Shown here: in pieces, positions 3,715 to 44,373 of the stretch
How the letters are laid out: the number at the start of each line of letters is the position of its first letter
Numbering within the stretch: the first letter of the stretch is position 1
From: a virus
Virus record (IMG/VR): IMGVR_UViG_3300031251_000979
Location: 1 to 46,991 of that record
Direction: 5' to 3' (one strand)
DNA: 46,991 nt
The notes under the pieces: generated by a model
What the model was told of the DNA's origin: nothing
The model's database searches: none
The model's input: only the letters and a program-made list of their open reading frames with translations
Made by a program: the position numbers and the translations under genes

Positions 3715-6700
3715 TCAATAAGCGCCGCGGGAGGACGGGTTCAGAGCCATATAGTTGCCGTAAGCCTTGGCCATTTGTTTCAGCGTGCGGCGGTTCTTGA
3801 GGACTTTCGCCACGCTCTTTCCGTCCAGTGCCCTGACCTGAGGTGCCCAGATCGGGGCTGGCATTTGCCCGGATTGTCCCGGACCGCCGCTTCCGCCCAG
3901 CGAAAGCTTTCCGGCCCGAATGTCATCGGAGAAGGTACGAGGCACGATGATTTCACCGGCATGGACATTGGCCTGCATGTCCTTCGGCACATATGAGGTG
4001 CCAACGTCGAATGATGTCAGCGTGTCGAACGCTGCAACGGCCGCGAACGCAGCGCCCGCAGCGACAGGCGCCAAAATCCACCCAACATAGGGAATTTGAG
4101 CAACCGACTGATACGTGCCAGCCGCAGCCTTGTACGCATCGTTCATGATCTGCGCGGAACCGGCTGCTACATCTTTGGCTGATCCAACACTCATCGCTGC
4201 ATCGTGTGCAGTACCGCGCGCGGCGTCCCCTGCAGCTGAAGCACTCGTCATTGCCAATTCCGTCATGATCCAGTTTTCCAAACGCTGGAGACCGTTCATG
4301 ATAAAATCAGTAAGCATCTGGGCGAGACCCTGCCGAACAGCCTGACCCAATGTCTCTTGGCCAGAAAGCATGCCACGAATCATCGTATTGAAACCGCTGG
4401 TAATCGGACGAAATTGCTTTTCGTACTCTTTGGTCAGGCGGTCGATTTCCTGACTCTGCTTATTGACTGAATTGTGCTGCAGTTTGTCTATCTCGTTGAA
4501 CAGCCATTGGTAGATGCTAAGAATTTTCTGCGCGTCTTCGTCATACACCTGCACGTTGTCAGCGTTCGCTTGCTGATGTGCTTTGAGCGCCGCTATTTCA
4601 AGATCGGCTTCGTGCCCGTAGCGATCGACCAGAACTTGCAATTCCTGATCGGCAGAAATCTGCCTATCTGCTACCTGTTGGTCGAGGTCTCTTTTTTTGT
4701 TTTCGAGAGCTGAGCGACCGCGCTGATTGTCAGCATCAACGCCGCGCTGAAGAATGCGTTCAACCTTTGTCGCGGTTTGCTCGATATCCTGCAGCCAAGC
4801 TCGGTCTGCATCTTTCTGAGCTTGCGCCGCTTTATCGGCAGCCTGCTTCGCCACCTCTGCGCGCTGGTCCCCAGCCGTTCTCAGTTCGGAATTTAGCTTT
4901 GCCTGCGCCTGTTTGTATTCGGACGATTCCGTCCCAAACAGTTCCTTGGCCTTCGCAACCTCTTCTTGCGCAATCTGAATTCTCTGCGCCGAACCCGACT
5001 TTAAAGCAGCGGACTTTTCTTGTTCGGTTTGCTGGAAACTGCGGTATGCCTCTTCATTGTCGGATTTTTGAAGTGCGGCTTGATCTTTTGAAAGGGCGGC
5101 ATTGATATCAGACTGTGCCGTCGGATTTCCTTTGTTGAGAGCAAGCCCCTTCTCAAGGTCCGATATTTCCTTTGTCAGCTTCTCGCGCTGCGTCAGGCGG
5201 TCATTCACCTTGTCGGCGAGATCTATCGCCTCAATCGCCGGCTTGTTATTGCCCTGCGTCTGTATCGACCGGAGACGGGTAAGTTGATCTTCGGCCTGCT
5301 TTAACTGGCCTTCAAGGAATGGGTCGCGGACCGTCGAGCCCATCGCGCCAGTGAGCTGCTCCTTAATCCTTTGGATCTTTTGTTCGGTATCATAAATCTG
5401 ATCGCCGACCGATTTTATGTAAACGCCGGACTGCGCGGAGAGTTGTTTCAAAATCTCTGTGACAGCTTGTGCTTCCTGGCCGGTCGCAATCAGGTTCTGA
5501 ATGTGGGCATATTGCTCAGGAGCGAGATTTAGCAACTCACTGTTCATTTTCTTAAAGCCGGATTCAGTCAAATCCGTAAGGCCAAGCGCCAGCTTTCCTA
5601 CCGCCTCACCTGCTTTGTCGCCCATATCGCGGAAAGCAGGAAGAAGTTGCCCTGTCTCATTCGCAAGCGCCGCGCTAATCTGCGCATGCGCAGCGACGAA
5701 CTGCATGAAGCCGTCCGCAGCAGCATGCGTAACATTGGGGAGATTCCGTAGCTCTTGCTGATTGGCGCGAATTGCTTCGCTAGAGTATTCGGCCCCCCGT
5801 CCTGTTGTTTTGAACGCCTCGGTCAAATTATCGAGATCTTTCTGAGCCTCCAATGTCTCGTAGAGGAGGTAGCCCAGACCGGCGGTCATAGCCGCGGCTG
5901 CGCCGACAGAAGCCATCATCGATAGAGACAGATGCCCGAACGCCTCACCAGCGACCATTAATTCGCCGGGAATGCGGGTGTACTGTCCCGTGACAAGCGC
6001 GTGGGAGAGGACTACGGCAGAGCGGGAGAGCCGCGATGTCGATATAGTAACGGTGTCGGCCGCAACGCCAAACCCTCGCAAGCCTTCGCCCAAGGCGCGA
6101 GCCGCCTGAGCTTCAGTAGTCATTGCAAGGCGAACGTCCTTGGCGAGGGCGGCTTGCGTCACCTGCGGAGCTAGAGCCGCTTCAAAAGCCGCAGCGCTCG
6201 AAGCAGCCGACGCGAATTCTGTCTTCACCCCGGCATAGGAGTTCGCGATGCTCTGTCCAAGAGTGGCATTTTTCGCTGACAACACTTCTGCCGCGGCCAA
6301 CTTCTCTATTTCGGCGGCAACAGCAGCCGTGTCACGCCGCGCCGCATCAAACCCAGCGCTAGACGAGAGGGCAGACGTAAATGCTTTAGCACTTTGAGAA
6401 GCTGACTTAAGATTTCGATCAAGATCTAGCGAAGCGTCTATGCCACCCTGGAGACTGTCGAATGTGACTGCCCCTAGAGCGGTCGCAGTCGAAGCTATTG
6501 ACTTCCCCATTTGTTCGGCAGCCGTACCGACACCAAGCATCTCAGGAGTAATTTTTGAAAGATCGCCCCCCACCTGCTTAAGCGCATTGCTCATCGCAGA
6601 CGCCGAGACGTTGGTCTGCGTAGCCATGCCATTGATCGCCGCTGAGGCTTCTGCCGTCGACGCCTTCAGGCTCGCGTCGAGCGATCCGGTGATCTTGATT

Positions 6701-7389: not shown

Positions 7390-8008
7390 GGCTCGAACTC
7401 CGGCGGCTCTTCGATCTTGGTCGGGAGGCCCTTTGGCGCAGGCCTATATTTGAAGTAGCCTGCAAGAAATTCTTCCGCTGGCGGGCGCTGCCGCAGTTCT
7501 TCATTTTGTGCCTTAAGCCGGTCGAAAGTCAGCGCGTCTTCCCAGTAGTCCGGCGTCCCGTTGAAGTAGCGGCAGGCGCGCGTGATGAGGCCGTCCCAGT
7601 CCGGTTCGGCCCTTTCGCTTCCCCCTTTGTGCCACCCTCCGGGGCGGCGTCGGAAGAAGCAATGGCGTTGAACAGTTGAGTTTGGGCGCGAACGACCAGA
7701 AACGCCATAAGCATTTCGATGGGGCCGACCTCCATGTCCAAAAACTCGTCGAACAAAAGATCTGGGTGCGCCTTACTGAGTCCGTGGTAAACAACCTCGC
7801 AAACCTGGTTGTATTGCTCGTTCGAGAGATTTACCGCCTTCTCACCGAAGTTCTCGCCCACCATCACGTTGAGCGCGTCTGTCAAAGACATGATCTGCCG
7901 GAAAATATGTCGCATCTGTCGTGGACCAAGAACTGGGATGGGCCAATTCTTCCCCGCGAGAATGACAAACGGCGTCTCTCTTGGATTAAACTTCGCAGGC
8001 TCTGTCAT
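7386..8008 (-). CDS. Tail assembly chaperone, long form made by -1 frameshift (gpGT-like)
   Basis: The frame 3' of the short chaperone continues without a stop to TAA at 7388-7386 if the ribosome slips back one base at A-AAG-GGG (7628-7622). The joined product would be 207 residues. The extension reads GSERAEPDWDGLITRACRYFNG, then PDYWEDALTFDRLKAQNEELRQ, ending EEPPEFEP. It looks like real coding: it has no stops, a balanced composition and an amphipathic helix. In lambda-like phages the analogous gpG/gpGT pair coats and folds the tape measure protein and is not part of the virion. The position, between the tail tube gene and the tape measure, is exactly as expected. The nucleotide span shown includes the one-base overlap of frames. 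Confidence 0.75.
7529..8008 (-). CDS. Tail assembly chaperone, short form (gpG-like)
   Basis: 159 residues from MTEPAKFNPRET at 8008; the frame is open further upstream to 8557, but that part overlaps two real genes. It stops at 7529 after a low-complexity Arg/Thr/Ala tail that is read only when no frameshift occurs. The core (ILAGKNWPIPVLGPRQMRHIFRQIMSL) resembles small tail-tube chaperones of siphophages. It is translated after a two-base gap from the preceding 130-residue gene. It is expected to be made in large excess over the frameshifted form. Confidence 0.75.
   Translation of the reverse strand: MTEPAKFNPRETPFVILAGKNWPIPVLGPRQMRHIFRQIMSLTDALNVMVGENFGEKAVNLSNEQYNQVCEVVYHGLSKAHPDLLFDEFLDMEVGPIEMLMAFLVVRAQTQLFNAIASSDAAPEGGTKGEAKGPNRTGTASSRAPAATSTGRRTTGKTR
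7622..7628 (-). promoter_or_regulatory. -1 ribosomal frameshift slippery site AAAGGGG
   Basis: Read on the minus strand in the chaperone frame the codons are ACA AAG GGG GAA, giving the X-XXY-YYZ heptamer A-AAG-GGG. A one-base slip places the ribosome in the frame that continues to 7386. Lambda uses GGGAAAG for the same purpose. I did not find an unmistakable downstream pseudoknot by eye. Confidence 0.7.
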
Positions 8009-9182: not shown

Positions 9183-9641
9183 CTATGGGGCTGAAGGAAG
9201 TCCGATTTCGACCGGGAGGTAATAGATGCCCTGCCGGTAGTCAGGGCTGGTGCTGTTGTCGCCGCTATCTTTGGCGGCTCGACCTTTGACGCGGACGTAT
9301 TTGACGAGGCCGCCAAGCGTTTGATCATCATCGCCGGATGGTGGGACCAGCGCAGCGATCACGGCATCGATCAGCGGATTGAGCACCGTCGATCCCGCAG
9401 TGCCCTTTTTCGAAGTTGCCGCAATGTGAAAGTAGACGGTCCACACATCTTTCGGCAGATTGCCCGTCCATTCGCGGTCTTCGTAGGCCTCGTCCTGCAT
9501 GAGGACTGGCTGCTGTAACGGTGGAACGCGCTGGCATTCGATGATTTCGCGCGTCACCGTGGCGAACGGGCCGTTCCTGCTTTTTGAGAGCGGCGCGACC
9601 AGTGCAAAGAGAGCCTGATAAATCTGTTCCCGCGTGCTCAT
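9183..9641 (-). CDS. Tail terminator / minor tail protein U-like
   Basis: 152 residues. It begins MSTREQIYQALFALVAPL, has a central strand-rich part with EDREWTGNLPKDVWTVYFHIAA, and ends IYYLPVEIGLPSAP. This is the layout of small siphophage tail terminators (lambda gpU-like, DUF3168-like), which stop tube growth and join it to the head. The start overlaps the upstream gp10-like gene by ATGA. The tail tube gene follows after nine bases. Confidence 0.7.
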   Translation of the reverse strand: MSTREQIYQALFALVAPLSKSRNGPFATVTREIIECQRVPPLQQPVLMQDEAYEDREWTGNLPKDVWTVYFHIAATSKKGTAGSTVLNPLIDAVIAALVPPSGDDDQTLGGLVKYVRVKGRAAKDSGDNSTSPDYRQGIYYLPVEIGLPSAP

Positions 9642-11422: not shown

Positions 11423-13195
11423 TCAGTTGATCTGGCCCTTGAGGTCGATGGTCAGGCGAACCGTGCCGGCAAGGGTCACGCCGCTTTCGGTCTGGCCTTT
11501 GAGTTCGATGATGCGTGGCGGCAGAGCGCCAGATGACGAATAGAATTGCGCGGTCAGCCGTGTCGCCAGCGTGACGGCTTCTTCATAGGTGAGGATGGAA
11601 CTTGCCGCTTGATTGAACTGCGCGGCGAATGTGACCTGGGCGCCCAGCACACCGGCCACGGAATGGGTAGCCGCCACCTCCACCGGAAGCGTGATTGCAC
11701 CCTCAACCGTCAGCAGTCCGGACGAACTCTCGTCCACGCTGACCGAAAGAGAAATCGCTTTGTCGATGGTGACTGCGGCAGATACGGTCTGGCTCAACGC
11801 AAGGGCGAACGCGACCGCCGCGTTGGCGTTTAGCTGGGACGCAAGACTTGTCGAAACCGACGCGCCGAACGAAACCGCTTCATCCACTTGTTTCTGCACA
11901 GCCGATGAAACCAGGGCAGACACGGCAAGCGTGATCGCCTCGTCATAGGTCGTGCCGCCAGATCCTGTGACCCCGTCCATCGCGGCCGAGACGGCTACGG
12001 CAAAGCTCGCGGGGGCCTGTACATCGATCAGACCTGATGCTCCGAACCCTGCAGCGACAGAAAGCGCGACGGCTTCGTCGATGGTCAGCACCCCGGCGAT
12101 GGCCGCCGAGACGGAAAACCCGAAACTAACCGCAGCGCTTATGTCGCTCTGGGCTAGTGGCGAAAGGCCTGCCTGTAGGGCCAAACTCATCGCAGAATTC
12201 AGCACCGCGTTGGTCGCCTTGGTCAGACCAACCACGGTCCCCAGCGATATCGCGGCTTCGAGATTGGTCACCGGAACGGCGCTTAGTGCCAAACTGGCGG
12301 AGAAAGTTGCGGAAGCCACGGCCGATAAAGCAGGAGATGAACTCAACGACAGAGACGCGCCCAAGCTTATGGATTCGTCGTATGTCGAGCCTGTCGCGAC
12401 AGGCGTATTGGAGGCGACGCTGATCCCAACAGGGCTGAGCAACGCCCAGGGATTTTTCGCGACAAACCAATGCTGGGCCGAACTGAGTGGCTGGAAGAAA
12501 AAGAACGTCCAGGCGTTCTGTCCGTCGAAATAGTTGGGGCTATAGCCGCCCGGGCGTATGCCAAGCTGGATCGTCGCGGTCGTGCCGGCCGATATGCTTG
12601 TGCTGCCGCCCCAGCCTGAGCTGTTGGCAGTCAGAACGCCGTTTTCGAACAGATTGATATTGCTGAGTGCCGACACCCCGACCGTCGTAAAGCCGGAAGG
12701 CGTGTTCGAACTGGCGACAACGGCCTCGCCGTTGCCGGTCAACATCGATACGGCGAATTTGCCGTTGGAGCCTGCCCCGAGGGTGACCTGCCGAGTGTTG
12801 CCGCTCGTACCCAGATAGACAGCCCAGGCATTGCCGGCAGGGTTTGAACCGACCTTCAACCGCGCGACAATCGAGCACTGGGAGATGTCGCCCGGCAAGA
12901 ACAGCGGCGCTGATGTCAACACCGCCCGTTGTTGCGATGCCGCGACCGTCTTGAAAGCGAGGCCTTCTTCGCTCGTGATGACCGAAGGATTGTTGCTGCC
13001 CCCCGGGAGTGCCAGCCTCGCACCCGCTGGGCCTCCCATTCCGATGATGGTTGCAGCAGGACTGCCATCCTGAAACAGGATCGCGCCCACGCAGCCCATG
13101 TTCCGCGCGACAGTGGAGAGTTTTAGCGCGTTGCCCCGAAACGGCGGCTTGACGATCTGCCCATCGGCCCAGGGACGGAGAATGTGAACGCTCAT
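11423..13195 (-). CDS. Large Ala/Ser-rich repeat virion protein (fibre or head decoration)
   Basis: 590 residues. Residues 1-255 look like a LamG/concanavalin-type beta-sandwich (SIVARLKVGSNPAGNAWAVY, NINLFENGV, GRTGG-like turns, WTFFFFQPLSSAQHW) similar to that in phage cargo and fibre proteins. Residues about 265-560 are some 14 degenerate copies of a roughly 20-27 residue unit with the core (D/E)xAxxLxxxxS, for example ISLGASLSL, VALSVAAGF, VSFGASVST, ISLSVSVDE. The C-terminus (PPRIIELKGQTESGVTLAG) is a short separate end. The unit resembles the repeats of rod-like fibres. The gene overlaps the cupin gene by ATGA. Function is inferred from its surroundings only. Confidence 0.7.
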   Translation of the reverse strand: MSVHILRPWADGQIVKPPFRGNALKLSTVARNMGCVGAILFQDGSPAATIIGMGGPAGARLALPGGSNNPSVITSEEGLAFKTVAASQQRAVLTSAPLFLPGDISQCSIVARLKVGSNPAGNAWAVYLGTSGNTRQVTLGAGSNGKFAVSMLTGNGEAVVASSNTPSGFTTVGVSALSNINLFENGVLTANSSGWGGSTSISAGTTATIQLGIRPGGYSPNYFDGQNAWTFFFFQPLSSAQHWFVAKNPWALLSPVGISVASNTPVATGSTYDESISLGASLSLSSSPALSAVASATFSASLALSAVPVTNLEAAISLGTVVGLTKATNAVLNSAMSLALQAGLSPLAQSDISAAVSFGFSVSAAIAGVLTIDEAVALSVAAGFGASGLIDVQAPASFAVAVSAAMDGVTGSGGTTYDEAITLAVSALVSSAVQKQVDEAVSFGASVSTSLASQLNANAAVAFALALSQTVSAAVTIDKAISLSVSVDESSSGLLTVEGAITLPVEVAATHSVAGVLGAQVTFAAQFNQAASSILTYEEAVTLATRLTAQFYSSSGALPPRIIELKGQTESGVTLAGTVRLTIDLKGQIN

Positions 13196-13539
13196 TCGTC
13201 ACCTGCGAATCTGACATCCTCCACGTTGTTTGTCGGCCGGCGATTGCCATCGAGAGCAGCGAACGTGCAATCCACGATGGCGGGTACAATGATGGGCTCG
13301 ACGCTATGGGGCACACCGGGCCGGATTTCGAGTTTGCTTGCGTCTTCCGCATATAGTTCGGCATCGACCAGAAGCTTTTCCCAGTCCGACGGATCGAACA
13401 ACCGGACGCGAACAGCACCTTTCCGGGGGGCCATCATGTGCGGCTCCTCGTGCGCGTGCGTCTCAATCACCTCGTCGTCGCGGTCAAAGTGAATGGTGTT
13501 GACGGTGAAGTGACCGAAGTGGCCGCGTGACTTAAGCAT
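13192..13539 (-). CDS. Small cupin-fold protein
   Basis: 115 residues. Cupin motif 1 is recognisable as ETHAHEEPHMMAPRKG (His28, His30 and His34, then Gly41) and motif 2 as RPGVPHSV (His78). These histidines would bind a metal. Single-domain cupins of this size can be sugar isomerases, oxygenases or simple structural folds. Here the gene is inside the virion block with overlaps on both sides (8 bases upstream, ATGA downstream), so a structural or virion-modifying role is plausible. The substrate cannot be predicted. Confidence 0.65.
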   Translation of the reverse strand: MLKSRGHFGHFTVNTIHFDRDDEVIETHAHEEPHMMAPRKGAVRVRLFDPSDWEKLLVDAELYAEDASKLEIRPGVPHSVEPIIVPAIVDCTFAALDGNRRPTNNVEDVRFAGDE

Positions 13540-13969: not shown

Positions 13970-14236
13970 TCAGAGCGCAGCGAGTTGAGCATCGAGCGCC
14001 GCGTCGCGCGCGTTGCAAATGTCGATCAGGGCCTGAAGAACGGCTGTGGACTCCTCCACCGTCATCAGCAGGCTATCGAGATCGATCTGCAACCCACTGG
14101 AGTTCACGTTCGCCATCCGCATGAAAACGAAGGTGGACGACGCTTGCTGGGCATTTTGAATGCGCCCCAGAACATCGGAAACCGCCGACTTCTTTGCGAT
14201 AATGTCGGAGGCCTGCTGGGCTTTGTCCTGATCCAT
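13970..14236 (-). CDS. Small helical hypothetical protein downstream of the capsid gene
   Basis: 88 residues, MDQDKAQQASDIIAKKS to the end DAALDAQLAAL. It is nearly all predicted helix and rich in Ala, Asp and Gln, with no cysteine. It is the first gene after the capsid gene and is separated from it by a strong hairpin, so it is probably made at a lower level than capsid. It could be a head accessory or connector piece. The family is unknown to me. Confidence 0.6.
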   Translation of the reverse strand: MDQDKAQQASDIIAKKSAVSDVLGRIQNAQQASSTFVFMRMANVNSSGLQIDLDSLLMTVEESTAVLQALIDICNARDAALDAQLAAL

Positions 14237-25495: not shown

Positions 25496-25803
25496 CAGAC
25501 GTGCCCCCCGTTGAAATAGCTGAGCGCAACGCCCACGGGCCCTGCTGGCGCTCCATCTGCCAACTTCGGCAATGCATCACGGATGACTGGAAGCGGTGTT
25601 CCGAACTGCAGGGCAATCGAAAGGATCACCGCTGTTTCGCGAGCCACCGTGTTCGCCGTGCTGCCTTCTTTCCCGGCATTCAAAAAAAGCTCTGACAACT
25701 CGCCTTTCCGATTCCATCCGAAATGCGCGGTGTAGCTCACCCCTTCATGGGAGAAGGATACGAGTTCTGCGTTTCTACGTTGGGGGAGACGGTTGCGGGT
25801 CAT
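25495..25803 (-). CDS. TSCPD-domain protein
   Basis: 102 residues from ATG 25803, which overlaps the methyltransferase stop as ATGA; the longer frame to 26028 lies within that gene. The pattern FSHEGVSYTAHFGWNRKGEL, ELFLNAGKEGSTANTVARE, ALQFGTPLPVIRDAL and GPVGVAL is that of stand-alone TSCPD proteins, related to a C-terminal part of B12-dependent ribonucleotide reductases. Such small proteins are common in alphaproteobacterial phages. A link with nucleotide supply is possible, since it is next to the replication genes, but the function of the free domain is not known to me. Confidence 0.7.
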   Translation of the reverse strand: MTRNRLPQRRNAELVSFSHEGVSYTAHFGWNRKGELSELFLNAGKEGSTANTVARETAVILSIALQFGTPLPVIRDALPKLADGAPAGPVGVALSYFNGGHV

Positions 25804-26696
25804 GCAACCTCTGCAGCAAACATATCGTGTTGCGCGTCCACGGCGTCGAGATTTCCGCAAGCTTGGCGCCAATAACTTTCCTTGAGTTCGACGCCCACGA
25901 AGCGCCGGCGCAGCTTCAGCGCGCCATAGCCTTCGCTGCCAATGCCCATGAATGGCGAAAAAATGGTATCGCCTGGGTTCGACCACATGATGACGGCCCG
26001 CTCGATCACGTCGAGTTGAAGCGGGCATAGATGGCGTTCGTCTTTTGCTTCGCGCGCCAGCTTCACGTTCAAAACATTGGATTGCTCAACGCTCATCCAA
26101 ACCGGAGACGCCCACTCCTGCCACTGATCAAGCGGAAAACCGGATGGCGTGTGCGCGATCGGTTCGTCGTTGAGGCCCGGCTTCATGAAGGTCAGAAGAT
26201 AGTCCGGCATGCCGCCGCGCGACTTTGAGCTATCCTTCTGCAGCTGCTTGTAGAGAAGCCCGACGTGCTTTGTGCGGGTCATTTCCACAACCGGGCATTT
26301 CCAGATTGTGCGCCGGGAATGCAAAATCCATCCGGCGTCTTCATGAATGCGGATAATTTCACCACTGAAATCCTTGATCCCGATTGCGCCGTCTTTCCAT
26401 TTGGTCAGCGGAAGATCGGAACAGTGAACAGCGGTCAGCCTGCCCGGCTTCGTGATGCGAAACTTCTCGCGAACCTCATAGGCATAGTGTTCCGAGAATT
26501 CCCCATCGCTGGACGAATTGCCCATGTCCGCGATGCTGTCCGAGTAAACGAACAATGAGCCAAACGGGGGACTGTAGACGCTCAACCCAACGCAGGCGTC
26601 GGGAAGTTGGCGCATCACCTCCACGCAATCGCCCTGGTAGGCAATATATTTCCGACCGATCTTGGAATTCAGACAGTTCACGATGCCATCAGCCAC
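25800..26696 (-). CDS. Site-specific DNA methyltransferase (amino-methyltransferase, N4C or N6A)
   Basis: 298 residues. Catalytic motif IV is YSPPFGS (residues 41-47). The SAM-binding motif I, with FSPFMGIGSEGYGALKLRRRFVGVEL, lies near residues 243-268, that is, after motif IV, the beta-class order. SPPF is a variant of the (S/D/N)PP(Y/F/W) motif and leans to N4-cytosine. It probably shields phage DNA from host restriction. The 5' end overlaps the helicase gene by 19 bases, so the two may work together. No restriction enzyme gene is adjacent. Confidence 0.85.
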   Translation of the reverse strand: MADGIVNCLNSKIGRKYIAYQGDCVEVMRQLPDACVGLSVYSPPFGSLFVYSDSIADMGNSSSDGEFSEHYAYEVREKFRITKPGRLTAVHCSDLPLTKWKDGAIGIKDFSGEIIRIHEDAGWILHSRRTIWKCPVVEMTRTKHVGLLYKQLQKDSSKSRGGMPDYLLTFMKPGLNDEPIAHTPSGFPLDQWQEWASPVWMSVEQSNVLNVKLAREAKDERHLCPLQLDVIERAVIMWSNPGDTIFSPFMGIGSEGYGALKLRRRFVGVELKESYWRQACGNLDAVDAQHDMFAAEVA

Positions 26697-31052: not shown

Positions 31053-31400
31053 TTAAGCGGCTCCCTCTGAGATTTCGCCCCTGGCAGGGGCAGAGGGGTT
31101 GCGGATACTGCCAGGGGTTTCGCCGCGCGATGTGGCCCGCGCAGGTTCAAATTCGTGATTGCAGTTCGGGCAGGAAATGGTGCGCGAATGGTTGAGCAGT
31201 TCTATCGCGCGGCGCTTACTTTTTATTCTGCGGATGTGACCGCGCACTTCGAGTTGCTTCAAAACGCGAGCGGCGACCCCTACGTTTGGAAGGTCGAGCG
31301 CCATTTTTATTTCACTGCACGATGGCGCATAGCCGGCGGTGGCGACGCTCTCTTCGATCAAGCGCAGGCAGGCCACAGCTCTTGCGGTGAGACGTCTCAT
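31053..31400 (-). CDS. LexA-like winged-helix protein with a zinc knuckle
   Basis: 115 residues from ATG 31400, chosen for its very strong RBS (GGGGAGGGG, five bases away); the frame is open to 31538. Residues 1-70 (LTARAVACLRLIEESVATAGYAPSCSEI, VGVAARVLKQLEVRGHIRRI) look like the LexA DNA-binding domain. There is no peptidase domain. It is followed by SCPNCNHEF, half of a zinc ribbon, and a Ser/Arg/Gly-rich tail. It may compete with or replace a LexA-type regulator. First gene of a co-oriented group with the 159-residue HTH gene. Confidence 0.7.
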   Translation of the reverse strand: MRRLTARAVACLRLIEESVATAGYAPSCSEIKMALDLPNVGVAARVLKQLEVRGHIRRIKSKRRAIELLNHSRTISCPNCNHEFEPARATSRGETPGSIRNPSAPARGEISEGAA

Positions 31401-32100: not shown

Positions 32101-32316
32101 CTAGGCGGCACTCCGGGTGGGCTCTTCCGGCAAATCAAAAAAATCGTTGGCAGTGATTTCACCAGCGGTGCCGTCGATGATCTTTTGGAGAACTTCAGGC
32201 TCTGGCACGCGTCCGCGCTCATATCGACCGAAAGCAACCGCCGACACTTCGAACAGCCTTCCGGCCTGCTCTTGGCTCAATTTGCGGTCTTCCCGCCATT
32301 TTTTGAGTTTGCTCAT
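32101..32316 (-). CDS. cro: Cro-like helix-turn-helix repressor
   Basis: 71 residues. HTH of the XRE/Cro type: LKKWREDRKLSQEQAGRLFEVSAVAFGRYERG (residues 4-36), then a short helix and an acidic end. It is transcribed away from the cI-like gene with 83 bases between their start codons, where three operators lie. By analogy it would shut off the repressor promoter during lytic growth and start the minus-strand lytic operon. The HTH helices resemble those of the CI protein (both have GRYE), which fits shared operators. Confidence 0.85.
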   Translation of the reverse strand: MSKLKKWREDRKLSQEQAGRLFEVSAVAFGRYERGRVPEPEVLQKIIDGTAGEITANDFFDLPEEPTRSAA

Positions 32317-32324
32317 CGGAAAAC

Positions 32325-32353
32325 ACGATGAACCGAAGCGGTATTAAAGTCAA
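32325..32353 (-). promoter_or_regulatory. Probable promoter of the cro-side lytic operon
   Basis: On the minus strand TTGACT lies at 32353-32348 and CATCGT at 32330-32325, with a 17-base spacer. The -35 starts within operator O2 (CGGTTGACT), and operator O1 fills the spacer. The -10 is weak (3 of 6). The same composite CGGTTGAC[A/T] plus an operator in the spacer occurs at the early promoter at 34613. Confidence 0.6.
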
Positions 32354-32390
32354 CCGTTCCGGTAGTGGTATCTACCTAACCGCTGCGGTT
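32331..32390. promoter_or_regulatory. Three repressor operators between cro and cI
   Basis: O1 AACCG-AAG-CGGTA (32331-32343), O2 AACCG-TTC-CGGTA (32352-32364), O3 AACCG-CTG-CGGTT (32378-32390, perfect palindrome). Centres are 21 and 26 bases apart. O1 and O2 cover the cro promoter; O3 ends 9 bases before the cI start and could give self-control. An additional inverted repeat GGTAG/CTACC spans 32361-32376. Confidence 0.8.
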
Positions 32391-32399
32391 CACTGGGGC

Positions 32400-33011
32400 A
32401 TGAATAGAATCGCAAAACTTCGAGAGGACCGCGGTTGGTCTCAGCAGGATTTGGCCGACCGGCTGGAAACGACCGCTGTTTCGGTAGGTCGGTATGAAAA
32501 GGAAGACCAGCGGCTGACCCTCCCTTTGCTACGCAAGATTGCTGAGGTTTTTGGCGTTTCGGTAGCTGACGTGATCGGCGAAGCAGGCTCGCAGCCGGGA
32601 ACAATCCCGATTCCGGCCTACGACATCCGGGCGGCCGGAGGACCTGGGGCCTTCAGCGACGAGCAAGAAGAGCCGCCGCACTACCTCTATTTCCGAGAGC
32701 AGTGGATTCGGAAGCTTGGTCGCCCGAACTTTCTCGTTGTGTTGGAGGTGTCAGGCGACTCGATGTGGGAAACCCTGCACGACGGCGACAACGCCCTTGT
32801 CGATCGATCTCAAGTAAACCCGCGCCGAGAGGGCCTTTACGTTATCCGGATCGATGATGTGCTGCAGGTCAAGCGGATCAGCATGCACCCTGTCACCAGG
32901 CTACTCACGATCAAGAGTGATAATCCTGCCTATCCCACCTATGCGGATGTGAACCCGGATGACATTGCTGTTGTTGGTCGGGTGGTTTGGATCGGGCGCT
33001 CGCTTGGATGA
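32400..33011 (+). CDS. cI: CI/LexA-type phage repressor with S24 self-cleavage domain
   Basis: 203 residues from ATG 32400. HTH at residues 5-36 (LREDRGWSQQDLADRLETTAVSVGRYEKE). S24 peptidase with Ser121 in VSGDSMWETL and Lys158 in VLQVKRI; the probable cleavage site is Ala79-Gly80 in DIRAAGG. RecA-stimulated autocleavage after DNA damage would induce the prophage. The frame extends 24 codons upstream through the operators, which is not likely to be translated. The Shine-Dalgarno signal is poor (TGGGG two bases before ATG), so the mRNA may be leaderless or weakly translated. It is the only sizeable regulator on the plus strand here. Confidence 0.92.
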   Translation: MNRIAKLREDRGWSQQDLADRLETTAVSVGRYEKEDQRLTLPLLRKIAEVFGVSVADVIGEAGSQPGTIPIPAYDIRAAGGPGAFSDEQEEPPHYLYFREQWIRKLGRPNFLVVLEVSGDSMWETLHDGDNALVDRSQVNPRREGLYVIRIDDVLQVKRISMHPVTRLLTIKSDNPAYPTYADVNPDDIAVVGRVVWIGRSLG

Positions 33012-33023
33012 TTGGCCTGGCTT

Positions 33024-33590
33024 ATGAAAATTGACGTTCGGCGAGTGGGGACGATCACGTTTAACGAAGCTGCTGAGCTAGTTGCGAATATTTGGATAGG
33101 CGGCGCCCCTGGGATACCTCGCAAAGAGGTAACTATCACTTGCACAATCGGCGCTGCTGCTAGCGCCATTTTCGAAGGTCAAAAGACGAACCCAGAAGAC
33201 CTTCCGGAACTCGAAACGGCGCTCTGGGCCTACCGTGGCAGTGTCTACAATATTTCCGGCGATGTTTCTCCGCTTCTCTCCGCAGCACAAGTGTCGCTAT
33301 TGGTTCGCAATGCCGCTTTGAAAGATGACCAAGAATGGGACCGCCTTGAGCGCGCGGTAACAACCGCAGAACAGCTCGTCGAGCTTTCCTCATATAAGCG
33401 TGAGCCTATATCGGAAGCCGTTCGAATGTTCGTGTGGCGACGCGATCAGGGGCGTTGCACCAAATGCGGCAGCAGCGAAAAGCTAGAGTTTGACCACATA
33501 ATTCCGCACTCGAAAGGCGGCGGCAATTCGGAACGAAATATCCAATTGTTATGCGAGCCCTGCAATCGGTCGAAGTCCGCGAAAATCTGA
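33024..33590 (+). CDS. HNH endonuclease downstream of the repressor gene
   Basis: 188 residues from ATG 33024; a TTG at 33012 right after the cI stop is an alternative. The C-terminal 55 residues are an HNH nuclease: WRRDQGRCTKCGSS, EFDHIIPHSKGGGN (His158), NIQLLCEPCNRSKS (Asn172, Asn181), with four zinc cysteines at 145, 148, 177 and 180. Residues 1-125 are an unrecognised N-terminal domain. It lies 12 bases after cI in the same direction, so it is probably expressed in the lysogen together with the repressor. That fits an immunity or defence role (for example against other phages), but this is inference. Confidence 0.8.
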   Translation: MKIDVRRVGTITFNEAAELVANIWIGGAPGIPRKEVTITCTIGAAASAIFEGQKTNPEDLPELETALWAYRGSVYNISGDVSPLLSAAQVSLLVRNAALKDDQEWDRLERAVTTAEQLVELSSYKREPISEAVRMFVWRRDQGRCTKCGSSEKLEFDHIIPHSKGGGNSERNIQLLCEPCNRSKSAKI

Positions 33591-33600
33591 TGCTTGCATT

Positions 33601-33627
33601 CCCATCCCAGTGTTCTTTGGGGTTGGG
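33601..33627. terminator. Possible hairpin between converging HNH and hicB genes
   Basis: CCCATCCCA (33601-33609) and TGGGGTTGGG (33618-33627) can pair imperfectly around an 8-base loop. Genes converge here, so a two-way terminator is expected. There is no U run, and the stem has mismatches. Confidence 0.35.
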
Positions 33628-33631
33628 CTAA

Positions 33632-34060
33632 CTACTGGACGGAATGCTCCAAGCGGACAGCGTTGGCGAAAATCGCCACAGAAGTAACTTGGCGCATGGC
33701 AGGCTCGGTGAGTGATTCCGTGGCAACCGCCAGAAGCGCGTTATACTGCTCCTGAAGCTGCTGGACCTCACGGTTCATCGCCTCAAGTGCGGTTCGCTGC
33801 TGGTTGAGGCTCTGAATGAGGCTCTTTCGTTCGGCTATCACGGCTTGCAAGGCCGACCCAGGTTCCGGGATGGCCATGCCTTGGGCCTTTGCCTCGTCGA
33901 GCCATTCACCAATGGCGCCCCGAGCGTCGGCGAGTGCGTCTTCCTGAGTCTCGCCGTGACCCATGCAGCCGGGAAGATCAGCGACAAATGCAGCAAAACC
34001 GCCACCATTTTCGGCGGTCTCGGGTACGACGGCGATTGTGTACACTTTGTCCATTTTCAA
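33632..34060 (-). CDS. hicB: HicB-like antitoxin with a long coiled-coil tail
   Basis: 142 residues from ATG 34060, overlapping the hicA stop as ATGA. Residues 1-65 are the HicB partial RNase H-like fold: YTIAVVPETAENGGGFAAFV, DLPGCMGHGETQEDALADARGAI, EWLDEAKAQG. In most HicB proteins a DNA-binding domain (ribbon-helix-helix or HTH) follows. Here residues 70-142 look instead like a coiled coil (ERKSLIQSLNQQRTALEAM, REVQQLQEQYNALL), with no DNA-binding motif I can see. It should neutralise HicA. How it would control the operon is unclear. Confidence 0.82.
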   Translation of the reverse strand: MKMDKVYTIAVVPETAENGGGFAAFVADLPGCMGHGETQEDALADARGAIGEWLDEAKAQGMAIPEPGSALQAVIAERKSLIQSLNQQRTALEAMNREVQQLQEQYNALLAVATESLTEPAMRQVTSVAIFANAVRLEHSVQ

Positions 34061-34359
34061 GCTCCTGGCCGATTTCGGAAGGCATCGGCTAAGGCCACTA
34101 GGTTACGTATATAGCATGACTTAACTGGTTTGCGCGCGGGAACCGTTAAAATGCCGCGAATACCTGGGGCCACGATCTTGTAATGGCTTCCCCGGGTAGG
34201 CGGTTTCATCGTCATGCCAGTTTGGCGGCACAAGGTTTCAACGTCCTTTACGGTCCAATCTCCAGCAGGGTTTTTCCGCATCTTTTCCAACAGCTCGCAG
34301 GGCGTGGCCACTGGCGGCGTTGGGCTTTGGGGCTGGGGTTGCACTGGCAATTTCGACAT
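34057..34359 (-). CDS. hicA: HicA-like mRNA interferase toxin with an N-terminal extension
   Basis: 100 residues. The dsRBD-like HicA fold is at residues 33-95: GDWTVKDVETLCRQTGMTM, GSHYKIVAPG with the expected active His59, and LTVPARKPVKSCYIRNLVAL. HicA is usually about 60 residues; here about 25 extra residues, Pro/Gln-rich (LPVQPQPQSPTPPVATP), stand in front. As toxin gene first and antitoxin second it has the usual hicAB order. Placed between the repressor module and the early promoter it may maintain the prophage or block other phages. Confidence 0.82.
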   Translation of the reverse strand: MSKLPVQPQPQSPTPPVATPCELLEKMRKNPAGDWTVKDVETLCRQTGMTMKPPTRGSHYKIVAPGIRGILTVPARKPVKSCYIRNLVALADAFRNRPGA

Positions 34360-34388
34360 CTGCTAGGCCATCTGTCCTACACGCTCCT

Positions 34389-34433
34389 ACTAGTTCCAAA
34401 CGGTAGAGTCCATCGTAGGTTGAACAACTAGTT
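34389..34433. promoter_or_regulatory. Paired ACTAGTT elements upstream of hicAB
   Basis: ACTAGTT occurs at 34389-34395 and again at 34427-34433, 38 bases apart; the core ACTAGT is a palindrome in each. They lie 30-74 bases before the hicA start on the minus strand, where a promoter and its operator should be. The distance is near 3.6 turns of DNA, so whether both face the same side is open. The binding factor is unknown, as HicB here lacks a visible DNA-binding domain. Confidence 0.4.
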
Positions 34434-34600
34434 ACCGCCCCACCCCAACTCAGGAGGCAGGCGCTGTCCTCGGCGATTGATCGGGTTGCCTGCCGGTCGA
34501 ACCGGACCCCACCCATAGCCGTGAGGTATTGGGCTGGCGGGCGGCAAACAGGCCCAGCCTCCAAGTACTTACGATTTTCTGCCATCCCGGTTCATAAATG
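34434..34600. other. Intergenic stretch with two inverted repeats, no convincing gene
   Basis: Between the hicAB control elements and the early promoter. GGCAGGC near 34452 pairs with GCCTGCC near 34488, and GGCTGG near 34530 pairs with CCAGCC near 34554. CCGGT-CGA-ACCGG lies between them. A minus-strand frame covers the area (34450-34686) but it runs through the early promoter and its composition is poor. The stretch could hold a structured RNA or an excision/partition site; nothing decisive is visible. Confidence 0.35.
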
Positions 34601-34601
34601 T

Positions 34602-34641
34602 AACCGTTTCGGTTGACAACTAACCGGACCGGTACTACCTT
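34602..34641 (+). promoter_or_regulatory. Early promoter of the plus-strand operon with two repressor operators
   Basis: TTGACA at 34613-34618 and TACCTT at 34636-34641 with 17 bases between. Operator OA AACCG-TTT-CGGTT (34602-34614, perfect) runs into the -35 box, and OB AACCG-GAC-CGGTA (34622-34634) fills the spacer. These match the operators beside cI. Bound repressor would block this promoter in the lysogen. The first gene starts 70 bases downstream, at 34711. Confidence 0.75.
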
Positions 34642-36623: not shown

Positions 36624-36817
36624 CCCCCACCAATCTCCCAATGAACTTCCCAGCGCAAGTTCTAAAGCTCTGGACTGTTCGCTCCAACCCTCTCGACAGC
36701 ATGTCGGCAGATGAAATCAAGAGGCGCATGAAACTTGGCGCAGACACACGGTCTCATTTCGAAGCTCTGACACGTGCGAACAGGGCGAAGCAGCTTAACA
36801 AATTGTTGGAGAACTGA
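36620..36817 (+). CDS. Small hypothetical protein
   Basis: 65 residues. MTPTNLPMNFPAQVLKLWTV, then a basic helix (DEIKRRMKLGADTRSHFEAL, RANRAKQLNKLLEN). Overlaps the previous gene by ATGA. No family recognised. Confidence 0.5.
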   Translation: MTPTNLPMNFPAQVLKLWTVRSNPLDSMSADEIKRRMKLGADTRSHFEALTRANRAKQLNKLLEN

Positions 36818-36818
36818 A

Positions 36819-37529
36819 ATGAATACCTGGCTCACAGATGCAGATGGCAATCGCTGCTCAGTGGAATATTTCGGAACACGCGAAGCCGCTCAAGCCGCGC
36901 TCGACAGCCTGAAAAATTGCAAGAACTGTACAAACTGCTCGCGCTGCTCGGACTGCTCGCACTGCTCGTACTGCTCGGACTGCTCGGGCTGCTCGCACTG
37001 CTCGCACTGCTCGGGCTGCTCGCACTGCTCGGGCTGCTCGGGCTGCTCGCACTGCTCGCGCTGCTCGGACTGCTCGCACTGCTCGTACTGCTCGGACTGC
37101 TCGGGCTGCTCGCACTGCTCGCACTGCTCGGGCTGCTCGCACTGCTCGGGCTGCTCGGGCTGCTCGCACTGCTCGGGCAAGAAAAATGTTGTTTCGGGTG
37201 TTGAAAAAGCCGACTCAGGCCCTCCGCCAATTCCGGTTATCCCCGACATTCACAAAGCCGTGTATGCAGCGGCATCCGCGCCCGGCTCGCTCGACATGCG
37301 CGATGTTCATACCTGCGAGAAAACACATTGCCGTGGCGGCTGGGTGGTGACGCTTGCCGGGAAAGCCGGGCACGACCTCGAAGAATTCTACAACTGGGAA
37401 CTGGCCGCGATGCTGATCTACGACGCCAGTGATCCGGGATTCAAAATTAACCCCGCTCGTTTCTATGACGAGAACGATGTCGCATTGGCCGACATGAAGA
37501 AATTGGCCGAGGGCGCCCATGCCCAATAA
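36819..37529 (+). CDS. Cys-Ser-X repeat protein with a conserved C-terminal domain
   Basis: 236 residues from ATG 36819, with GGAG nine bases upstream. Residues 1-32 form a short head (MNTWLTDADGNRCSVEYFG, EAAQAALDSL). Residues 33-119 are an unbroken Cys-every-third-residue array (NCKNCTNC, then 27 CSX units with X mostly H, G, D, Y or R): 29 cysteines in all. The C-terminal 100 residues are a globular domain (PVIPDIHKAVYAAASAPGSLD, THCRGGWVVTLAGKAG, LAAMLIYDASDPGFKINPARFY) that I recall as a stand-alone protein in phages and bacteria. No signal peptide. Possible metal binding, redox or a three-sided solenoid; unknown. Confidence 0.8.
   Translation: MNTWLTDADGNRCSVEYFGTREAAQAALDSLKNCKNCTNCSRCSDCSHCSYCSDCSGCSHCSHCSGCSHCSGCSGCSHCSRCSDCSHCSYCSDCSGCSHCSHCSGCSHCSGCSGCSHCSGKKNVVSGVEKADSGPPPIPVIPDIHKAVYAAASAPGSLDMRDVHTCEKTHCRGGWVVTLAGKAGHDLEEFYNWELAAMLIYDASDPGFKINPARFYDENDVALADMKKLAEGAHAQ
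36936..37169 (+). repeat. Two exact 117-bp tandem copies within the CSX array
   Basis: 36936-37052 and 37053-37169 code for the same 39 residues, starting CSRCSDCSHCSYCSDC and ending CSGCSGCSH. The base unit is the 9-mer TGCTCGNNC. The copies appear identical in DNA as well as in protein, so this is a recent duplication by slippage or unequal recombination. Confidence 0.85.
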
Positions 37530-40701: not shown

Positions 40702-41057
40702 GGCAGGCAATCACTCCGGCGATGAAGGTTCTTTGCCTCCTGCACCGGGCCGAGGTCACTTGTGCAATCTGCGGCGAGCCGGTCTTGCCGGAAGACGATA
40801 TCGAATGGGATCATATCTGGGCTTTGACGCATGGCGGGCCGCATACCTATTCAAACCTGCGACCGCTTCACTTCGCCTGCCACAAGGTCAAGACGAAGGC
40901 CGACATCCAGGCCCGCGCCAAGGTGCGCCGCATCACGGGCGAAACCAAAGGTCGCGTCTCTAAGCCACTTCGTTCTCGCGGGTTCGACAAAACGAAGTCA
41001 CGCAAATTCAACGGCACAGTAGTCCCACGTCCCACAGCTACAGGGGGAGAGAGATGA
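40698..41057 (+). CDS. HNH endonuclease
   Basis: 119 residues with GTG start in GTGA overlap. CAICGEPVLPEDDIEWDHIWALTHGG (Cys22, Cys25, His39), YSNLRPLHFACHKVKT (Asn53, Cys61, His62) make a complete HNH with a zinc-binding fold. The C-terminal part is basic. It sits between ninB and the C5 methyltransferase, a position in which lambda-like phages carry nin-region nucleases. It could resolve DNA junctions or nick at packaging; exact role open. Confidence 0.85.
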   Translation: MRQAITPAMKVLCLLHRAEVTCAICGEPVLPEDDIEWDHIWALTHGGPHTYSNLRPLHFACHKVKTKADIQARAKVRRITGETKGRVSKPLRSRGFDKTKSRKFNGTVVPRPTATGGER

Positions 41058-41689
41058 GCGAACGATTGCGGGCGCTTGATCTTTTCTGCAAGGCGGGAGG
41101 TGCATCGATGGGCCTGCATCGTGCGGGCTTTGATGTGGTCGGCGTCGATATTGAGCCTCAGCCGAACTATCCTTTTCAATTCGTGCTGGCAAACGCCTTG
41201 AGCTTCGATCTGGCGGGCTTCGATTTTATCTGGGCCTCGCCACCATGCCAAGCACATACCAACGCCCAACGCATCCGCAAGAACACCCATCCTGATTTGA
41301 TTGACCCTATCAGGATGCGGCTGAAGGCTGCTGGTCGGCCGTACTGCATCGAGAATGTCGTAGGTGCGCCGCTTCGCGAGCCTATCGAATTATGTGGCAC
41401 GATGTTTGCCCTGAAGACCTATCGTCACCGGCAGTTCGAATGTTCATTTCCGATTATGCAACCAGCGCATCCGCCGCACATGGTCAGGCAAACGAAAATG
41501 GGCCGCAAGCCTGTACCTGGCGAATTCATCCAGGTTGTCGGCAATTTCTCTGGAGCCCCTTTCGCTCGTGAAGCCATGGGTATGCCGTGGGCTACGCGTG
41601 ACGAGTTAAGAGAAGCCATCCCGCCAGCCTACGCAGAATACATCGGACGCAATGCAATCCAACATATCGATATAAGGAAGGCAGCATGA
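41054..41689 (+). CDS. Short DNA (cytosine-5)-methyltransferase
   Basis: 211 residues. SAM-binding FCKAGGASMGLHRAGF (motif I), FDFIWASPPCQAHT with catalytic Cys65 (motif IV), and RPYCIENVVGAP (motif VI, ENV). The C-terminal part (VVGNFSGAPFAREAMGMPWA, REAIPPAYAEYIG) replaces the usual motif IX-X end. It is about half the length of common C5 methyltransferases and lacks a sizeable target recognition domain, so specificity may be low or given by a partner. It is the second methyltransferase of this phage and the only one in the early operon. Protection from restriction is likely. Confidence 0.85.
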   Translation: MSERLRALDLFCKAGGASMGLHRAGFDVVGVDIEPQPNYPFQFVLANALSFDLAGFDFIWASPPCQAHTNAQRIRKNTHPDLIDPIRMRLKAAGRPYCIENVVGAPLREPIELCGTMFALKTYRHRQFECSFPIMQPAHPPHMVRQTKMGRKPVPGEFIQVVGNFSGAPFAREAMGMPWATRDELREAIPPAYAEYIGRNAIQHIDIRKAA

Positions 41690-42998: not shown

Positions 42999-43231
42999 GC
43001 AGAAGTCAGGAAGATTCCATGGACCGAGATAACGCCAAGGCATTAGCTCCGCCGCTGGGGCTCATTGTAAAGCTCGGCTCTATTGCCGTTCATGCAAAGG
43101 AAATGACTTCGCCGGACGGCCATGAATTCGATGCCATCGCACTGAAGGCACTCTTGAACGATCCCGATGTTCGCAATTGGCTGACTGCCATGGACCGGAT
43201 GGCGATGATACCAAAGATGCGTAAACCATGA
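42995..43231 (+). CDS. Small hypothetical protein upstream of the TnpB-like gene
   Basis: 78 residues (MSRSQEDSMDRDNAKALAPP, KLGSIAVHAKEMTSPDGHEFD, KALLNDPDVRNWL). Alpha/beta and conserved-looking, similar to small phage proteins I recall. Its stop overlaps the start of the TnpB-like gene by ATGA, so the two are translated together. Confidence 0.55.
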   Translation: MSRSQEDSMDRDNAKALAPPLGLIVKLGSIAVHAKEMTSPDGHEFDAIALKALLNDPDVRNWLTAMDRMAMIPKMRKP

Positions 43232-44373
43232 CCGTCCCCTCACCTCCCACAGATGAAGCGCGGGAGGTCATCAAGACCTACAGCTTCCGGGTGAAGAACC
43301 TTGAAGGAGAACTGAACCGTCATGCCCGTGCCGTAAACCTGACCTGGAATTTCTGCAACGGAGCCCAGAAGCATGCGCTTCGGTGGGGCAAGCGTTGGCC
43401 GACTGCCTTTGACCTGATGTATCTGGTCGCCGGTGCGTGCAAGGAGCTTAATACGCCCGCCAACACGCTCTGCCTGGTCTGCAAGAACTATGACAAGTCA
43501 CGCCGACAGGCCCGCAAGCGCGCTCTCCGGTACCGTGGTCGACGTTCGCTCGGGTGGGTGCCGTTCCGGGCGCAAAGCCTCAAGGTCATGGAAGATGGCT
43601 TCAGGTTCGCCGGAAAGCATTATCGGGTCTTCAACCCTCGCGAACTACCCGAGGGGGCGAAGCTGGTTGATGGATCATTTGCGCAAGACTCAGAGGGGAA
43701 ATGGTTTCTCAACGTCTGCTTCAAGGTCGCTATAACGCCGCGAACGCGCGTGGCCAAGGCAGTAGGCATCGACCTTGGCCTGAAAACTCTGGCGACATTG
43801 AGCAATGGGGCGGAGATCGATCACCCGCGCTTTTACAGAAAGATGGAAGCCCGTTTGGCGACAGCTTCGCGCGCCAACAAGCGCGGCCAAGTCCGTCGTC
43901 TACAAGCTCGGTGTGCTAACGCCCGCAAAGATTACATCCACAAGGCGACCACGGCCTTGGCGGAGGAATATTCGTACGTGGCAATCGGTGACGTGCCTGC
44001 TTCCAAACTAGGCCGCACCAAGATGGCAAAATCCATCTATGACGCAGGTTGGACGATGTTCAAAAGACAGTTGCGCTACAAGGCGATTGCGCTGGGCGGA
44101 ACGTTTATGGAGATCGATGAAAGTTTCACGACTCGAACTTGTTCTGAATGCGGTGCATTCAGCGGCCCGGAAGGCCGACAGGGTTTGAGTGTAAGACAAT
44201 GGCAATGTTCCGCATGTGGGGCCGATCACCATCGCGACGTGAATAGCGCACGGAACATCCTTGTCCGTTCCAGGCACGGAACGCTGATAGCAGGAGCCGC
44301 AACGAGCGGAAGTGCCGACATCACCGCCATAGACGCCGCCATCAACCCTTCTAAACCAGTGGAGGGTAGATGA
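43228..44373 (+). CDS. TnpB-like RNA-guided nuclease family protein (IS200/IS605 OrfB) with a changed RuvC site
   Basis: 381 residues. RuvC-I Asp182 in VGIDLGLKTLATLSNG, the zinc finger with Cys305, 308, 327 and 330 (CSECG, CSACG), and the last catalytic Asp337 in HHRDVNSARNIL are all present. At RuvC-II the usual IxxED is VAIGDV: the glutamate is Gly254. A Glu lies 41-44 residues on (FMEIDESFTTRTCS: Glu295, Glu298). The N-terminal WED/REC-like half (NLTWNFCNGAQKHAL, KRALRYRGRRS) is complete. There is no tnpA gene and no clear element ends. It is coupled to both neighbours by ATGA, so it behaves as a resident phage gene. It may be an active nuclease with a shifted site or a binder only. Confidence 0.85.
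   Translation: MTVPSPPTDEAREVIKTYSFRVKNLEGELNRHARAVNLTWNFCNGAQKHALRWGKRWPTAFDLMYLVAGACKELNTPANTLCLVCKNYDKSRRQARKRALRYRGRRSLGWVPFRAQSLKVMEDGFRFAGKHYRVFNPRELPEGAKLVDGSFAQDSEGKWFLNVCFKVAITPRTRVAKAVGIDLGLKTLATLSNGAEIDHPRFYRKMEARLATASRANKRGQVRRLQARCANARKDYIHKATTALAEEYSYVAIGDVPASKLGRTKMAKSIYDAGWTMFKRQLRYKAIALGGTFMEIDESFTTRTCSECGAFSGPEGRQGLSVRQWQCSACGADHHRDVNSARNILVRSRHGTLIAGAATSGSADITAIDAAINPSKPVEGR

Follow-up and report, generated by a model that had tools for sequence, protein, structure and literature searches.

Rhizobium phage 16-3 is a temperate phage of the Alphaproteobacteria whose C repressor binds operators. Other points of comparison for the locus described here lie among the lambdoid phages. 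Lambda itself has three plus three operators, in clusters about 2.3 kb apart (PMC5880393), whereas the Stx2 lambdoid phage 933W has five (three OR sites and two OL sites, OL3 being absent; PMC3317979), so that the presence of three OL sites does not define the wider lambdoid group. In BAA2326 the distance between OL and OR is about 3.2 kb, and a BsuBI restriction-modification system is located beside cI on the OL side (PMC5977221).

The present locus was found in a 46,991-base stretch of viral DNA, which was analysed over its full length and is referred to as the window. It has the sequence features expected of a lambdoid switch, that is, a CI protein with helix-turn-helix (HTH) and S24 domains, a divergent cro, multiple operators between cI and cro, and the same operators again beyond cI, overlapping the predicted early promoters. 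The region is very probably the lambda-like immunity region of a temperate phage, in which CI operators control both early promoters.

Gene content of the immunity region

The CI-type repressor (32400-33011, plus strand) has an HTH_3 domain (PF01381, 9e-13) and a Peptidase_S24 domain (PF00717, 2e-17) of the LexA/CI type, with an A-G cleavage site and Ser and Lys residues that are conserved in relatives. Divergent from cI is the gene for a 71-aa Cro-like HTH protein (32101-32316, minus strand; HTH_31/HTH_3), which is 44% identical to CI over the first 34 residues and has the helix 3 motif SAVAFGRYE, compared with TAVSVGRYE in CI. The helix 3 residues shared by the two proteins make common operators plausible, and it is from this motif that Cro is predicted to bind the operators as well.

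Directly behind cI, a gene for an HNH-domain protein (33012-33590, plus strand) is the first in a cargo slot between cI and the OL-like operators. The slot also holds genes on the minus strand for a HicB-like antitoxin (33632-34060) and a HicA-like toxin (34057-34359), the latter a weak assignment (PF07927, E = 0.0025, which misses the curated cut-off). With that reservation for HicA, domain matches agree with the initial annotation, which had placed cI, an HNH gene and hicAB between the two operator clusters. The minus arm of the phage encodes a DnaB-like helicase, terminase and portal, and the plus arm NinB and an integrase, a division into two arms that matches lambdoid phages; the phage is temperate, and its host is probably an alphaproteobacterium.

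Further genes of the window were noted in passing. A LexA DNA-binding-domain (winged-helix) protein with a C-terminal Cys pair is encoded at 31053-31400 (minus strand), and a similar gene adjoins cI in two relatives, L016 and L017, both without cro. The plus arm carries a TnpB-like OrfB (43228-44373; Cas12f1-like TNB and OrfB_IS605 domains), and a 251-aa frame at 36774-37529, in which Cys-Ser-x repeats (CSDCSHCSYCSDCSGC...) follow one another over a long stretch, has no Pfam match. Two phage DNA methyltransferases, at 25800-26696 (minus strand) and 41054-41689, are of N4/N6 type and weak C5 type.

A rare operator at two predicted early promoters

An exact count over the 46,991 bases of the window gives five copies of AACCG-N3-CGGT(T/A), with no further AACCG-N3-CGGTW and no further copy of the shorter core ACCG-N3-CGGT. 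The initial annotation, which had listed the same five copies, two of them as perfect palindromes, and by eye had seen no others, is confirmed by the direct count, and the palindromes are those at 32378 and 34602; it had also proposed a scan of phage and host with the 13-mer, of which the phage part, covering the whole record, a lone viral contig, returned only these five sites. Dinucleotide shuffles of the sequence contain a mean of 0.11 copies of the 13-mer (maximum 1) against the five observed, and a mean of 0.79 copies of the ACCG-N3-CGGT core (maximum 4). The five operators score 16.5-20.4 bits with a weight matrix and the next-best window position 12.1 bits, a gap that is partly circular because the matrix was trained on the window's five sites together with those of the related phage L046, whereas the exact counts are not circular. 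One-mismatch sites at 12128 and 21220 of the window, both within long reading frames, and at 2628 of L046 are isolated and were taken as chance occurrences.

Three of the sites lie between cro and cI. The OR1-like operator (32331-32343, AACCGAAGCGGTA) is within the spacer of the predicted cro promoter, a half-site of the OR2-like operator (32352-32364, AACCGTTCCGGTA) joins the -35 of that promoter, and the OR3-like operator (32378-32390, AACCGCTGCGGTT), a perfect palindrome, is followed 9 bp further on by the cI start codon. The remaining two are OL-like: the first (34602-34614, AACCGTTTCGGTT) is again a perfect palindrome, with a half-site that joins the -35 of the predicted early promoter, and the second (34622-34634, AACCGGACCGGTA) is within the spacer of that promoter. 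The operator centres, at 32337, 32358 and 32384 and at 34608 and 34628, are spaced by 21, 26 and 20 bp, and the two clusters are 2.22-2.29 kb apart. For the early promoter, the best candidate for a third operator (34580, TGCCATCCCGGTT) scored 2.4 bits, had no counterpart in L046 and was rejected.

Direct reading of the sequence predicts a PR-like promoter for cro (32325-32353, minus strand; TTGACT-17-CATCGT) and a PL-like early promoter (34613-34641, plus strand; TTGACA-17-TACCTT), both of which have one operator directly against the -35 and a second in the 17-bp spacer. On the minus strand the operator runs into the -35 of the cro promoter as ACCGGAACGGTTGACT, the fuller reading before cro being TACCGGAACGGTTGACT-N17-CATCGT, and the plus strand before the early genes reads AACCGTTTCGGTTGACA-N17-TACCTT. 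This is the design described in the initial annotation, including centres 20-21 bases apart at each promoter (21 at the cro side, 20 at the early side). The -10 hexamers, CATCGT and TACCTT respectively, are poor, and a consensus promoter scan flagged neither promoter; the junction of -35 and operator at the cro promoter is kept in L046, L016 and L017. Judged from the position of the -10, the 5' end of the cro mRNA would fall no more than about two bases from the cro ATG, making the transcript near-leaderless.

The sole -10 candidate for cI is TATCTA (32369-32374), which is coupled with a poor -35 and has the OR2-like operator in its spacer, so that positive autoregulation of the kind seen at lambda PRM is not evident; no persuasive promoter for cI that places OR2 at the -35 was seen in the sequence. 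A further promoter-like sequence on the minus strand (34591-34619; TTGTCA-17-TATGAA) faces the opposite direction to the early promoter and overlaps it, with the operator at 34602-34614 in its spacer. This candidate could drive hicAB under CI control; it is not conserved in L046, where no minus-strand cargo gene lies there.

Conservation and exchange of operators among relatives

L046 is an independent phage on a 65-kb viral contig, with a CI 73% identical to that of the window. Its operators, at 7932, 7953 and 7979 and at 9252 and 9272, correspond in order to the five window sites and have the same spacings of 21, 26 and 20 bp; they run into the -35 (GGTTGACA) at both promoters, and the plus promoter (TTGACA-16-TATAAC) is in the same place as the early promoter of the window. 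The two clusters are 1.27 kb apart in L046, and the slot between them is occupied by one unrelated 211-aa gene, with no hicAB. Operator arms are identical between the window and L046 at 46 of 49 positions (94%), compared with 79 of 151 (52%) for all other bases (p = 2e-8), a figure made up of 6/15 at the three central operator positions and 73/136 elsewhere in the alignment. The retention of five sites at the same spacings indicates that the feature is real and, with the conserved -35 junction, supports the earlier proposal of a single operator family at two early promoters flanking cI.

Two alphaproteobacterial genome contigs, L016 and L017, encode CI proteins 65% and 61% identical to that of the window and have weaker, degenerate cI-side sites at the same positions (OR2-like at 1946 and 1165, OR3-like at 1967 and 1191, respectively), with TTGACA abutting the middle site. 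Neither has cro beside cI or a second operator cluster within 6 kb, and both may be decayed or domesticated elements. The helix 3 residues TTAVS-GRYE are invariant among the CI homologues compared.

Among 2.9 million viral contigs, L046 was the only other phage found to combine this operator family with a homologous CI. The exact double-operator pattern with CGGTT cores had no match in the viral contigs, and a relaxed form recovered L046 again (as L058) together with L056, L057 and L059, which carry other repressors and are treated as side evidence only. A search of the viral contigs with Cro gave one weak match only, and 385 alphaproteobacterial genomes contained no CI relative at E <= 1e-40 beyond L016's own genome. 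Genome-wide counts of the motif with one mismatch in G001-G003 fell below the reversed-pattern control and are therefore uninformative.

The two-promoter layout also occurs with a swapped operator sequence, which lends the proposal further support. In L005, where CI is 43% identical and has a different HTH, the operator is TTGCGA-N3-TCGCAA, with sites at 5851, 5884 and 5909 before cI and at 7825, 7917 and 7941 after it, and TTGACG between the last two. In L018, where CI is 49% identical and has an N-terminal domain not recognised by Pfam, the operator is TAGCG-N5-CGCTA, with two plus two sites (3499, 3532 and 4691, 4722) and TTTGACA between the last two. L059, which has an unrelated repressor, has two plus two sites 0.8 kb apart, and the separation of the clusters among phages with the same layout ranges from 0.8 to 2.2 kb. 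In L057, pairs of AACC-N5-GGTT-like sites (13407-13440 and 14150-14183) occur on both flanks of a repressor gene of another type, one pair surrounding TTGACA, in an arrangement that is tandem and not divergent.

A strict automated scan, which required exact palindrome families flanking cI, picked up the window, L046 and L005; it missed L018, where the sites have one mismatch, and detected no such families at other CI relatives, so the layout is not shown to be universal among them. Where the layout is kept, the operator sequence changes with the N-terminal domain of CI, which makes CI the likely binder. Binding by CI is a strong inference, and this co-variation, over a handful of loci, is the best evidence for it here.

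A model for the switch

Taken with the gene context, the sites suggest a switch in which a CI dimer would recognise the 13-bp operator AACCR-N3-YGGTT, three copies of which separate cro from cI and two of which precede the early operon on the far side of cI, at a distance of 2.2 kb. Because one operator at each early promoter abuts the -35 and another, about two helical turns away, sits in the spacer, a pair of CI dimers could sit side by side, perhaps cooperatively, and would block RNA polymerase at both promoters. In the lysogen, the minus arm, with replication and structural genes, would then be silenced, as would the plus arm, with those for recombination and integration. Binding of Cro or of excess CI to the OR3-like operator would turn cI off, and upon SOS induction the S24 domain would be expected to cleave itself, opening both promoters. 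The HNH gene and hicAB, in the interval from cI to the OL-like sites, would be lysogen cargo, like rexAB in lambda. Counting against this reading are the poor -10 hexamers, the silence of the consensus scan at both promoters, the lack of a clear cI promoter and the single further phage found with this operator family and a homologous CI.

In addition, CI might join the two clusters in a DNA loop, as happens in lambda through a CI octamer, an extension of the model above and not an alternative to it; the initial annotation had put such a loop forward with a 'perhaps'. The separation in the window is close to that of lambda (PMC5880393) and both ends have side-by-side operator pairs, but the separation varies from 0.8 to 2.2 kb in phages with the same layout, the sequence gave no sign of higher-order CI assembly, and in 933W, with the same three plus two arrangement, binding of the repressor to neighbouring sites is not cooperative (PMC3317979). 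On balance the loop has somewhat less than an even chance; the distance is compatible with it, and the repression model does not need it.

It is very improbable that the sites are bound mainly by Cro, by the LexA-like winged-helix protein or by HicB, with CI binding elsewhere. Cro has the helix 3 motif of CI, and autoregulation is common among HicB proteins. However, the cI-side sites are kept in L016 and L017 without cro, and all five are kept in L046 without hicAB, which argues against either protein as the essential binder, and the operator sequence shifts when the CI N-terminal domain shifts. The LexA-like gene, since it persists in L016 and L017, is the least excluded of the three. That the sites are chance inverted repeats, for which only the shortness of the motif speaks, can be regarded as already refuted by their conservation in L046, and five copies confined to two intergenic clusters, against 0.11 expected, leave it a negligible probability.

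Tentatively, the two clusters can be viewed as a portable immunity cassette of alphaproteobacterial phages, with a fixed operator/-35/operator geometry, an operator and CI N-terminal domain that are swapped together, an exchangeable cargo slot and CI control acting over 0.8 to 2.2 kb. The slot contains the HNH gene and hicAB in the window, the 211-aa gene in L046 and other genes in L005 and L018. The finding leaves the understanding of such switches unchanged; what it provides is a testable operator sequence and a complete switch anatomy for a temperate phage lineage outside the enteric models, coupled with a few relatives whose operators have changed along with the DNA-binding domain of CI. 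These should help to predict superinfection immunity and to find lysogen cargo in the interval from cI to the second cluster.

Comparison with known switches

The region resembles lambda in that cro and cI diverge from a stretch with three operators, that further operators lie at the other early promoter, beyond cI and its cargo (rexAB in lambda), and that the repressor combines HTH and S24-type domains. It differs from lambda in having two operators and not three at the second promoter, the match at 34580 being very weak, in its 13-bp operator and its HNH and hicAB cargo, and in that a site contacting the -35 of PRM is not evident. The three OR plus two OL sites, with the third OL site absent, are as in 933W, although the 933W operator is 15 bp long and unrelated in sequence, and the host group is different. 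With BAA2326 the region shares three operators between cI and cro and a cargo position next to cI, towards OL, whereas the BAA2326 operators are weakly symmetric and the cargo is different. As with Rhizobium phage 16-3, the phage is temperate and its host is an alphaproteobacterium, here a probable one, and its repressor is predicted to bind operators. The region fits the known range of lambda, 933W and BAA2326 layouts, and its control layout is one that is already known.
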